Assembly (NCBI GenBank): GCA_947454155.1
Contig: CANGIT010000003.1
Location: 1-64,000, forward strand
DNA: 64,000 nt
Direction of reading: 5' to 3'
Source of the DNA: Chitinophagaceae bacterium
GTDB lineage: Bacteria; Bacteroidota; Bacteroidia; Chitinophagales; Chitinophagaceae
In this document: positions 6,421 through 10,245 of the stretch, piece after piece
Numbering within the stretch: position 1 is the first letter of the stretch
How the letters are laid out: each line of letters starts with the position of its first letter
Translations under genes and position numbers: made by a program
Notes under the pieces: generated by a model
What the model saw: only the letters and a program-made list of their open reading frames with translations
Database searches by the model: none
What the model was told of the DNA's origin: nothing

Positions 6421-7074
6421 TTATTTTTTATTTTTCATCATTTCTGAAAAATTCAACACCCTGAATCCGTTGTGCGATGGATTGAATAATGTTATTGGTA
6501 CAATGTCTGTATTCAGGTTATTCAGTAAATAAGTGGCTACCCATTCATTTCCTGCTTTTTTATCGTTAATGATGATCTTCACCGGCAAGCCCCGGATGCC
6601 CAAGAAAGACATGTTGTAATCATTATTCAAAAGAGGATAATCATCTGAAAAATACAATTCAACCATTTTTTCTCCGTTAGCTGCTGTGGCTTTTTTACAA
6701 GCATAATCATTGATAGTAGTTATTCCTGGCTGAATGTTGAACACCATATTTCTAAAATCCTTATTTAATCTCAGCCAATCCTCTTGTGTTAGATTGATCA
6801 ATAACTTCTGTCCGCTATATTCTTTTAGAATCATCCCAACGCCTGTCTTGCGATCCCAGATTGAAGATTCCGAACCTAGCTTGCTGGTTAAATCTGTTCG
6901 GGTCTGATCTCCTTTGATGCATAATTTCCATTCAGCATCTCTTAATTGATCTTCGCCTAAATTGTTTTTAATTGAAAGGCTATAATGTGCAGTGAGTTCT
7001 GAAATTGCTTTTTGAGAATAGCCGGCATAGGCCATTAAAATAAAAAAAAACAAAGGGGCGTATGAATATTTCAT
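6421..7074 (-). CDS. Secreted hypothetical protein, GLPGLI/DUF4412-like
   Basis: A 217-residue protein with a signal peptide (MKYSYAPLFFFILMAYAGYSQ). The layout is strand-rich: YSLSIKNN, an RTDLTSKLGSESSIWDRKTG segment, LINLTQEDW, then FNIQPGITTINDYACKKA and FLGIRGLPVKIII. The last parts recall the GLPGLI and DUF4412 families of Bacteroidetes periplasmic proteins, where a variable reporter-like fold precedes 'Y.CKKA'. That link is by memory of the pattern only. Function unknown. Confidence 0.65.
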   Translation of the reverse strand: MKYSYAPLFFFILMAYAGYSQKAISELTAHYSLSIKNNLGEDQLRDAEWKLCIKGDQTRTDLTSKLGSESSIWDRKTGVGMILKEYSGQKLLINLTQEDWLRLNKDFRNMVFNIQPGITTINDYACKKATAANGEKMVELYFSDDYPLLNNDYNMSFLGIRGLPVKIIINDKKAGNEWVATYLLNNLNTDIVPITLFNPSHNGFRVLNFSEMMKNKK

Positions 7075-7196: not shown

Positions 7197-9383
7197 TCAG
7201 GCTTTTCCACCCGATTTATTTTTCAAATCCTGAAGTTTTTTCTGACTTTCCTGCATCGCATCTATACGCTCTTGCCACTTTGATTTTTTCATCGGCTTTT
7301 TTCTATTTTCTGCGATTTCGGCAATAATCTTATCATGATTAATGATGTATTTCTGGATAATCACTTGTAATAATAAAGTAATTGTGTTGGAGATAGTATA
7401 ATACCAGGTAAGTGCTGCAGGAAGCTTATTGAATATACCCAATAACATGAAAGGGAAAATATAAGGCATATACTTCATCAATGGATTGTTGTTGTCCTGC
7501 ATGTTGCTCATGCTGTAGAGGGAAATCAGCAAGCTGGTGATTACAGCAGTAAGGGTAAACAAGCTTACATGGTCGCCATAAAACGGAATGGAAAAAGGCA
7601 GATGGGCAATAGAATCGTATTGGGCTAAGTTGGTGGCCCATAAAAAACTTTCTCCCCTCAATGATATATTGGACTGGAAGAAATAGTACAATGACATGAA
7701 GATGGGTATCTGCAACAAGGCAGGCAAACAACCGCCCAATGGGCTTACACCGGCACTTTTCCAGAGCTTCATTTGCTCCATGCCAAAAGTCTGTTGATCG
7801 TCTTTGTATTTGGCCTTCAGGGCATCAACTTCCGGCTTCAATACTTTCATCTTTGCACCACTGAGATAACTCTTGTACAATATTGGAGAAGTGATCAGAC
7901 GAATCAACAAGGTAAGCAATAGAATAACGATACCCATGCTGGCGATATTCGATCTGAGGAAATCAAACACTGGCAACAGAAAATAACGGTTGATATATTT
8001 TACAAAAGAGAAAATTCCACTTCCATAGGGTACAATGTACTCCATATCGTTGTGGTATTGCTTCAACACATTGTAATCGCTTGGTCCAAAGTACATTTGA
8101 AAAGGCAACACGATTGAATTGCCCTGGGGCATTTGCAAAGTGGCGTCCGTTGTTACCTGTGTTAAATACCCCGCAGCGGTGTCTGTTGGAGTTACCCATC
8201 CGGAATGTGTATTATTGAAATTTTTTGAATAAATTAAAGCACTTAAAAAAAACTGCTGTTTAATTCCAACCCACTTTGTATTGACCAGGTCCTTGGCATC
8301 CGGTTTAGCGATGTATTCGAAGTCAAATTTGTCTTCTGAAAGATAACAATAATGACTCTGGGTCAATTCATAGGCATGGTCTTGCTCTATTTTGGGCGAC
8401 TCCACCTGCCATCTCAGGTTCAGATTTTTTTGTGTAAATACTTGTTCTGCCCCTGATATGTTGATAGCAAAATCAATCATGTAGTTACCTGGATGAATGG
8501 TGTAACTGTGTGTGATTTTTTTTCCGACACTATCTTCCCCAGCTACGAAATTTAATGTAGTGCTGTTGTCTGCATTTTTCACAGGAGCCTGTGCTTTAAA
8601 CAATACATTCTCGATATAAGTAGATTGATTTTTACCGCTGTTTACTGCATAACTGAATTTGTTGAATTCACTCTGGTTAAGGAATACAGGGGTTCCGTCT
8701 GCTTTTTTGAATTTTTTTAGTTCTACGTTGCCAATACTTGCCCCTTTGCTGTTGAAGGTAATTTTCAGTAAATCGTTTTCTAAAATTGTTGTTTCTGCTT
8801 TTGCCCCTGAAGTCAAAAACCAGGAATCCGGTTTCGCTTGAGATGAATCTGCGGGAGCAGTAGTTGCTACTTCTGTTTTAGGACTCAACTCCTGTTGCCA
8901 AACATGGTAAACAGAGTCTGATAAGGGAGCAAGTTGCTTTAATTCAGCTGGCTTGTGATTCATCATGCCCAAAATCAAATTCTGGTCGAGCATTACTTTG
9001 TAGCGCTGGTGTTCATCTAAACCAACGATGAAATTGACAGCAGGATATTTCTTTTCTGATACTGCCACCACTGTCAAACCATTTTTTTCAGCAGGAGAAC
9101 CCAATACCAAAGAAGCTGTATCATATTTAACGGTGGCATTGAACAAAGCGTCATCCGCCATCAAAGAAGAAAGCGCACCAATCCCTTTTGAATCTGCACC
9201 TATAATCACAGCATCTTTAATGTCTTTTTGATTTTTTCTGGCTAACGCCCCAAGGAAGTTCTTGATGGCAGTTTCGGGATTGCCCTGAAATTCATGTTGA
9301 CGTTTGCTATTAATCATCATCATAGTGACCAACAAAGCGCCAATCAGCACAAACCCAATCACCGTATTTCTATCCATTCCCAT
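7197..9383 (-). CDS. yidC: Membrane protein insertase YidC (enlarged N-terminal region)
   Basis: A 728-residue inner-membrane insertase/chaperone. TM1 follows the conserved DRNTVIGFVLIGALL start (the second Met, MDRNTV, may be the true start). The large periplasmic P1 domain begins near residue 196 (TTILENDLLKITFNSKGASI), and the conserved core follows from about residue 480: LLTLLIRLITSPIL with the groove arginine, GVSPLGGCLPALLQIPIFMSLYYFFQ, and the last TMs near LPAALTWYYTISN. Bacteroidetes YidC is usually about 600-650 residues; here about 120 extra residues (35-165) lie between TM1 and P1 and look like a separate alpha+beta domain. Gene order is rplY then yidC, each with its own promoter and terminator. 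Confidence 0.95.
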   Translation of the reverse strand: MGMDRNTVIGFVLIGALLVTMMMINSKRQHEFQGNPETAIKNFLGALARKNQKDIKDAVIIGADSKGIGALSSLMADDALFNATVKYDTASLVLGSPAEKNGLTVVAVSEKKYPAVNFIVGLDEHQRYKVMLDQNLILGMMNHKPAELKQLAPLSDSVYHVWQQELSPKTEVATTAPADSSQAKPDSWFLTSGAKAETTILENDLLKITFNSKGASIGNVELKKFKKADGTPVFLNQSEFNKFSYAVNSGKNQSTYIENVLFKAQAPVKNADNSTTLNFVAGEDSVGKKITHSYTIHPGNYMIDFAINISGAEQVFTQKNLNLRWQVESPKIEQDHAYELTQSHYCYLSEDKFDFEYIAKPDAKDLVNTKWVGIKQQFFLSALIYSKNFNNTHSGWVTPTDTAAGYLTQVTTDATLQMPQGNSIVLPFQMYFGPSDYNVLKQYHNDMEYIVPYGSGIFSFVKYINRYFLLPVFDFLRSNIASMGIVILLLTLLIRLITSPILYKSYLSGAKMKVLKPEVDALKAKYKDDQQTFGMEQMKLWKSAGVSPLGGCLPALLQIPIFMSLYYFFQSNISLRGESFLWATNLAQYDSIAHLPFSIPFYGDHVSLFTLTAVITSLLISLYSMSNMQDNNNPLMKYMPYIFPFMLLGIFNKLPAALTWYYTISNTITLLLQVIIQKYIINHDKIIAEIAENRKKPMKKSKWQERIDAMQESQKKLQDLKNKSGGKA

Positions 9384-9506: not shown

Positions 9507-10097
9507 TTATTTTTTACCACCTGCTTTAGGAGCGGCAGCTTCTTCTTGTTTCAATTGACGCGTCATGGTTACTGAAGCCACAGGAATTCTTGGTGAGTTC
9601 AGGATTTCCATATTATCGGCAACGATGTTTTCCACACGGATATTGCCATTCAATTCAAGATCGCTGATATCCACTTCAATGCACTCTCTCAGATGTTTTG
9701 GAAGGGCTTTGATTTTTACAGATTTGATTTTCAAAACCAGTTTACCCCCTGCCTTCACACCAGCAGATGTTCCAACAAATTTCAATGGCAAAGTGGCGAT
9801 TACTTTTTTGTCTTCCACCAGTTCCAAGAAGTCAATGTGAATCAGTTCGTCAGATACTTTATCGAACTGCAGATCTTTTAAAATGCAAGAATAATTGTTG
9901 CCATCCACAGTAATGTTGGCCAACATGAATTCTGAGGTATACACGATACCTTTCAATGCAGATGCAGCAGCAGAAAAATTGATTTCTTTTTTACCACCGT
10001 AAATTACACCTGGCACGAGCTTCTGAGAGCGAAGTTGGCGGGTGGCTTTTTTTCCGCTTTCGGTCCTCAGTTGTCCTTCGATTGTAATTGATTTCAT
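9507..10097 (-). CDS. rplY: 50S ribosomal protein L25 / CTC-type general stress form
   Basis: A 196-residue L25 of the long CTC type: an N-terminal 5S rRNA-binding beta-barrel (MKSITIEGQLRTESGKKATR, LVPGVIYGGKKEINFSA) and a C-terminal TL5-type domain (KALPKHLRECIEVDISDLEL). The frame is open for 44 more codons upstream, but those are low-complexity and contain the promoter element, so MKSITIEG is chosen as start. The C-terminus ends in a short basic AAAPKAGGKK tail. It follows prs on the same strand after 174 bases. It has its own promoter and a strong terminator. Confidence 0.93.
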   Translation of the reverse strand: MKSITIEGQLRTESGKKATRQLRSQKLVPGVIYGGKKEINFSAAASALKGIVYTSEFMLANITVDGNNYSCILKDLQFDKVSDELIHIDFLELVEDKKVIATLPLKFVGTSAGVKAGGKLVLKIKSVKIKALPKHLRECIEVDISDLELNGNIRVENIVADNMEILNSPRIPVASVTMTRQLKQEEAAAPKAGGKK

Positions 10098-10120
10098 TGT
10101 AAATAATTTTTTATGAGGCG

Positions 10121-10128
10121 CAAAGGTA
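10121..10128 (-). promoter_or_regulatory. -7 promoter element (TACCTTTG) for rplY
   Basis: The minus strand reads TACCTTTG, an exact TAnnTTTG match, 23 bases before the chosen rplY start at 10097. It lies inside the open upstream extension of the frame, which supports the shorter start. Confidence 0.6.
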
Positions 10129-10222
10129 GGGGTTAATGCCGTAAAAAAGAAGGAAAATATTGAATAATTGAAAGGCGGAAGCACAAAATATAAGCGCCTA
10201 CAATAAAACCTAAAAACATCTT

Positions 10223-10245
10223 CCCTCATAGGGTGAGACTATGGG
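10223..10245 (-). terminator. Possible weak terminator between prs and rplY
   Basis: An imperfect hairpin: CATAG (10227-10231) pairs with CTATG (10239-10243), extended by CC/GG past a bulged T. On the minus strand a short T-run follows (A-run 10212-10216). Much weaker than the other terminators here; partial read-through into rplY is plausible. Confidence 0.35.

Follow-up and report, generated by a model that had tools for sequence, protein, structure and literature searches.

The window, a stretch of 64,000 nucleotides from a Chitinophagaceae bacterium, carries a yidC gene whose product has an additional domain between the first transmembrane helix (TM1) and the periplasmic P1 domain (Table 1). 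By its domain content, the 728-residue protein is a putative insertase of the YidC type: both the P1 domain and the insertase core of the YidC/Oxa1/Alb3 proteins were detected, and the NCBIfam YidC model NF002356 scored 485.5 bits against a cut-off of 460. The LLIRLITSP motif contains the arginine of the hydrophilic groove, which we take to be the counterpart of E. coli R366; a simple pattern with this arginine matches 51 of the 64 YidC sequences collected and misses 13. The gene gave the single YidC match in its genome (G000; 2.92 Mb in 32 contigs, rated 100% complete), and the neighbour that we presume to encode a protein like ribosomal protein L25, as well as the secreted-looking protein on the other side, occupy the same places in 10 relatives compared. 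Further upstream, a gene that we take to be phosphoribosyl-pyrophosphate-synthetase-like was present in 7 of these relatives, and the loci of the other 3 do not show it. Because gene order is conserved and only one YidC match was found, we regard the protein as the normal orthologue rather than a second copy.

Table 1. Features of the yidC locus in the window; residue numbers refer to the 728-residue protein.
Feature	Coordinates	Strand	Evidence
yidC	7197..9383	-	Open reading frame, 728 aa; Pfam and NCBIfam matches
TM1 helix, residues 5-30	9294..9371	-	Helix 5-30 in AlphaFold2 model; lipoprotein profile aligns from residue 16
NTF2-like (DUF4878-type) inserted domain (very probable), residues 34-148	8940..9284	-	Profile matches, AlphaFold2 model, fold matches
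Low-confidence linker joining the inserted domain to P1, residues 149-199	8787..8939	-	Block means of 45-50 for residues 151-192; model ends at 192
P1 periplasmic domain (YidC_periplas), residues 201-460	8004..8783	-	Pfam PF14849, E 7.9e-29
Insertase core 60KD_IMP, residues 483-678	7350..7937	-	Pfam PF02096, E 1.3e-44; LLIRLITSP at residue 492
Presumed ribosomal protein L25-like neighbour gene	9507..10229	-	Upstream of yidC, as in 10 relatives compared
217 aa secreted-looking protein	6421..7074	-	Downstream of yidC, as in 10 relatives compared; weak DUF4412 match

The original prediction, made from the DNA letters, had described the protein as longer than the usual 600-650 residues and had placed a domain of about 120 residues at about residues 35-165, ahead of a normal P1 domain starting near residue 196. 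The unusual length is borne out, since YidC has 605-643 residues at 59 of 63 other loci (a set that includes three genes fetched twice), and at the other four the start was misplaced in the automated reading or the N-terminus was absent. Residues 35-165 do map to 8889-9281, and a normal P1 domain does follow the extra segment, with Pfam placing its start at residue 201. In the part before residue 200, Pfam gave just a chance-level match for the whole protein (KxDL, E 0.082). The protein resembles other Bacteroidota YidC proteins (NF002356, with PF14849 and PF02096) in TM1, P1, insertase core, gene order and the finding of a single copy, but its TM1 and P1 are separated by about 110-115 additional residues, which none of the 61 other loci whose N-terminus could be read has. 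Measured over whole open frames, 67-113 residues separate the start motif from the site corresponding to residue 200 at these 61 of the 63 loci, compared with 200 here; nearly all values fall at 79-107, and the extremes may be misplaced starts. The two loci outside this count, L020 and L066, are those without a readable N-terminus. Related proteins are therefore shorter and have a short linker, rather than the same length with a disordered linker, and relatives differ from one another in the sequence of this linker and, to some degree, in its length.

The insert was also searched for in 93 genomes of the genus, 394 of the family and 396 of the order, samples that overlap. Matches of any kind occurred in 21 of the 93 genus genomes (E up to 10), and in 19 family and 14 order genomes (both at E up to 0.1), and the insert lay within YidC in G000 only; the remaining matches were smaller separate frames, or short stretches inside longer frames. 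All longer frames with a match were fetched and none was YidC, while a few weak matches in frames of fewer than 260 codons (e.g., G011:C19, G260, G742) lie outside the fetched set. When residues 200-728 were compared by tblastn with 29 loci that had weak insert or profile matches, four of the places being present twice, nothing was found at E up to 0.01, and two positive controls were recovered. The lipoprotein family profile described below detected, in the 93 genus genomes, frames of at most 274 codons, the YidC of the window excepted. Several candidate fusions were rejected. The sole frame above 500 codons besides YidC among the profile matches listed (G369:C38, 517 codons) was not YidC; eight open frames of 671-717 codons (G489, G170, G473, G422, G328, G424, G277 and G013) were ordinary YidC proteins, 607-618 residues long and preceded by open sequence; and one further match that was tested resembles what is presumably a glycoside hydrolase, not YidC. 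A scan of the viral_contigs set with YidC found no relative. The insert is genuine, and private to this genome within the genomes sampled. A fusion carried as assembled sequence by one genome only is what a chimera of assembly or binning would also produce, but the reading frame runs uninterrupted across both joints, gene order is conserved, and G+C content is normal (0.41 in the insert, 0.40 in the yidC gene and 0.41 in the window). Since a misassembly would be unlikely to put a periplasmic domain here both in frame and in the right orientation, we consider an artefact of this kind exceedingly improbable.

Judged by profile comparison, the inserted segment and a lipoprotein from Ferruginibacter-like Chitinophagaceae are homologous, though much diverged, and the best matches of the insert are to this lipoprotein. 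A profile of eight of these lipoproteins, which had themselves been found using the insert, matched it with E 2.8e-9, compared with 0.061 for the best of 2000 shuffles. A second profile was built from 52 proteins picked by patterns of the lipoprotein itself, which avoids selection through the insert, and this also gave a significant match (E 1.9e-6 at Z 4000, against 0.16 for the best of 2000 shuffles). YidC was the only one of 281 open frames of at least 60 codons in the window to match this profile (E 2.6e-7) when matches at E up to 10 were admitted, and among 64 YidC frames the window's alone matched (3.8e-6), with none of the 63 others doing so at E up to 10. The 52 proteins came from a pattern scan that returned 62 loci; ten (L129, L131, L136, L139, L142, L144, L146, L148, L149 and L151) were left out of alignment A3 by hand, under no strict rule, several of them being partial or split matches and L139 a near-copy of L138. 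Alignment A3 itself includes the insert as its 53rd row, and the match of its own profile to the window's YidC is by construction.

The match to the lipoproteins is collinear over about 110 residues, extends into TM1 and stops before the lipoprotein C-terminal tail, so that TM1 of YidC occupies the place of the lipoprotein signal peptide in the profile alignment. Divergence is strong. Identity to the lipoproteins is 15-25%, and the insert has YKVMLDQ where they have WKVAFDK, the W being absent. Residues P36, F43, S65, K129, V130 and D133, which are invariant in the 53-row alignment, are still present, but other near-invariant residues of the family have been lost. The insert shares with the lipoprotein a collinear domain that follows a membrane anchor; in contrast to the lipoprotein, which is a separate protein with a lipobox-like cysteine and a C-terminal tail, it contains no cysteine, has no such tail, and sits inside yidC rather than in a gene of its own.

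At the eight loci first read, the lipoprotein has 175-214 residues, phoH lies near, and a second small DUF4878-like lipoprotein, crcB and ppa lie downstream, as far as the sequence reaches. At seven of the eight, a gene for a C92-like papain-fold lipoprotein stands between phoH and the lipoprotein (e.g., L041:1474-3190 and L035:1357-2712). Most of these gene names are our presumed identifications; for the C92-like gene, the one protein run matched PF05708 with E 8.4e-5, below the cut-off. No Pfam family of its own was found for the phoH-locus lipoprotein. PMC3924330 notes that DUF3828 is paired in a comparable way with NlpC/P60 peptidases. The genome with the fusion retains its own separate lipoprotein copy, of 186 residues, in a phoH-type setting that lacks the C92-like gene. 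This copy and the insert are 22% identical over 97 columns, and the copy is by far the closer fit to the family profile of the two; recent copying of the genome's own lipoprotein into YidC is therefore unsupported. A tree computed to locate the source of the insert gave an end branch of 6.77 and an unsure placement, and was unusable.

The fold of the insert was predicted with AlphaFold2 for residues 1-192 together with the 53-row family alignment. The model (mean pLDDT 70.6, pTM 0.55) has helices at residues 5-30 (TM1), 36-49, 52-58, 67-76, 78-84 and 134-142, with strands between 92 and 131, and block means of 82-88 for residues 41-60 and 91-130, 63-70 for residues 61-90 and 45-50 for residues 151-192. 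The first PDB match by Foldseek was the DUF4878 structure 3k7c (probability 1.00, E 6.4e-3, 4.8 A, TM-score 0.53 by target length); none reached E 0.001, and many further rows were NTF2-like or designed NTF2-like proteins. With VIA-align, the best match was PBP5 of Enterococcus faecium, at Z 9.2 (rmsd 2.6 A over 103 residues), just somewhat higher than the best Z of 7-8 often seen when a model has no clear match, and 3k7c aligned at Z 8.3 (rmsd 3.1 A over 95 residues). The predicted order of elements, with helices at 36-58 and 67-84 followed by strands at 92-131, is that of an NTF2-like fold, and the top matches are mostly NTF2-like, at moderate scores. These matches span residues 34-148. The extra domain proposed originally is thus supported in kind, as an NTF2-like domain of the DUF4878 type, and its extent is refined, a low-confidence linker running from residue 149 to P1.

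Searches by sequence profile gave less. The suggested search of the segment alone against NTF2-clan profiles of Pfam drew a blank: the insert matched neither DUF4878 (PF12870), whose gathering cut-off it did not reach, nor MecA_N at E up to 10, and its matches in Pfam and NCBIfam were at chance level at most and none NTF2 (KxDL, 0.023; shikimate dehydrogenase, 0.044). Profile A1 found no NTF2-like protein among PDB sequences, where the top rows were syntaxin-binding protein 1 (E 0.047). Among the 53 members of the family alignment, 16 matched DUF4878 at E up to 0.01, the best at 3.8e-6. The original expectation that structure prediction would return a folded segment held when the family alignment was supplied, but AlphaFold2 without an alignment (residues 30-155) gave a mean pLDDT of 45.5, and the fold assignment consequently leans on the alignment. 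The poor single-sequence model and the missing Pfam match are what would be seen if the segment were an expanded disordered linker that resembles the lipoproteins by chance. However, the profile matches lie far beyond those of 2000 shuffles and are collinear along the segment, and helices and strands are in place in the model built with the alignment, which makes a disordered linker very unlikely. We conclude that residues 34-148 very probably form an NTF2-like domain homologous to that of the lipoprotein family.

PBP5 and its relatives, the closest match by VIA-align, presumably carry their NTF2-like domain N-terminally in a larger envelope protein, directly following a transmembrane anchor. 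The likeness to their MecA_N domain is structural, as is that to DUF4878; the host protein is a different one, and the insert matches neither Pfam profile. Among the matches listed in the open-licence PMC literature, there was no description of a YidC with an NTF2-like domain, although absence there is weak evidence.

The only YidC found in this genome thus very probably carries, in frame within its TM1-P1 linker, an NTF2-like domain homologous to that of a small lipoprotein of the same bacterial group. TM1 occupies the position of the signal peptide and lipid anchor of the lipoprotein, so that, given what is known of YidC topology, the domain should face the periplasm next to P1, immediately above the membrane. 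There it may act as a tethered accessory module, with a pocket or open sheet that would bind a ligand or peptide. The bound partner would most likely be a substrate as it emerges or else a partner in the envelope, and binding would bring it to the insertase, the insertion step itself being left to the unaltered YidC core. A precedent comes from PMC3924330, where DUF4878 domains are argued, from structure and context, to be extracellular ligand-binding modules with a pocket, perhaps regulating the partners to which they are fused. In E. coli, TM1 and P1 of YidC touch the SecYEG translocon (PMC5766551), and P1 binds SecF, yet YidC functions after a large deletion in P1 (PMC7618853), suggesting that the TM1-P1 linker is a tolerant place beside the translocon. 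We give this account as a whole, a periplasmic NTF2-like domain working as a tethered binding accessory beside P1, about an even prospect, and regard the binding role as plausible but tentative.

The chief rival to an accessory binding module accepts the NTF2-like fold, and holds that a shuffled-in lipoprotein domain drifts passively, as a neutral spacer, in a linker that tolerates insertions. The loss of near-invariant residues, the occurrence of the fusion in a single genome and the variable linker of the relatives would all be expected from such drift. Also in its favour are the reports that YidC functions despite a large deletion in P1 (PMC7618853) and that a cleavable signal sequence can take the place of E. 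coli TM1 when SecYEG is co-expressed (PMC5766551). Against passive drift, the frame is open with normal composition, six family-invariant residues are retained, and much of the core of the model is confident. Passive drift is possible, if somewhat doubtful, and it remains the main rival because divergence is strong and only one genome carries the fusion.

Two other roles were weighed against tethered binding. By analogy with NTF2-like folds, which often associate, the domain might be an oligomerisation or docking module that joins YidC copies, or joins YidC to the genome's separate lipoprotein. Several of the fold matches, among them the CaMKII hub found with VIA-align, are indeed oligomeric, and the genome does keep a separate relative of the domain; however, a similar fold does not show function, and the insert and that lipoprotein share few residues. 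We regard docking as unlikely. It is quite unlikely, too, that the insertase is gated by a ligand or client, with a former lipoprotein sensor making the insertion of membrane proteins depend on an envelope signal or on a particular class of clients. Model bacteria cannot do without YidC, and its layout hardly varies among the relatives compared; a lineage whose only YidC found has acquired a lipoprotein-type domain is a natural experiment on the tolerance of the TM1-P1 region. The fusion also hints that this orphan lipoprotein family may act near the insertion machinery.

The 62 lipoprotein loci from the pattern scan carry the titles Ferruginibacter, Chitinophagaceae, Chitinophagales, Sphingobacteriales, Bacteroidetes and Bacteroidota, those of a few named genera, and in one case Streptomyces; the term Ferruginibacter-like used above follows from these titles. 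The Streptomyces case, L120, is on a contig titled Streptomyces griseus (isolate HRS-ES1-bin-403); it has a lipoprotein of the Chitinophagaceae type, its place in the tree is firmly among Chitinophagaceae rows, and the label is probably wrong. Some members of the genus (G010:C43, G057:C10 and G106:C13) have two adjacent copies of the lipoprotein gene, the second diverged, in frames of 199-216 codons.
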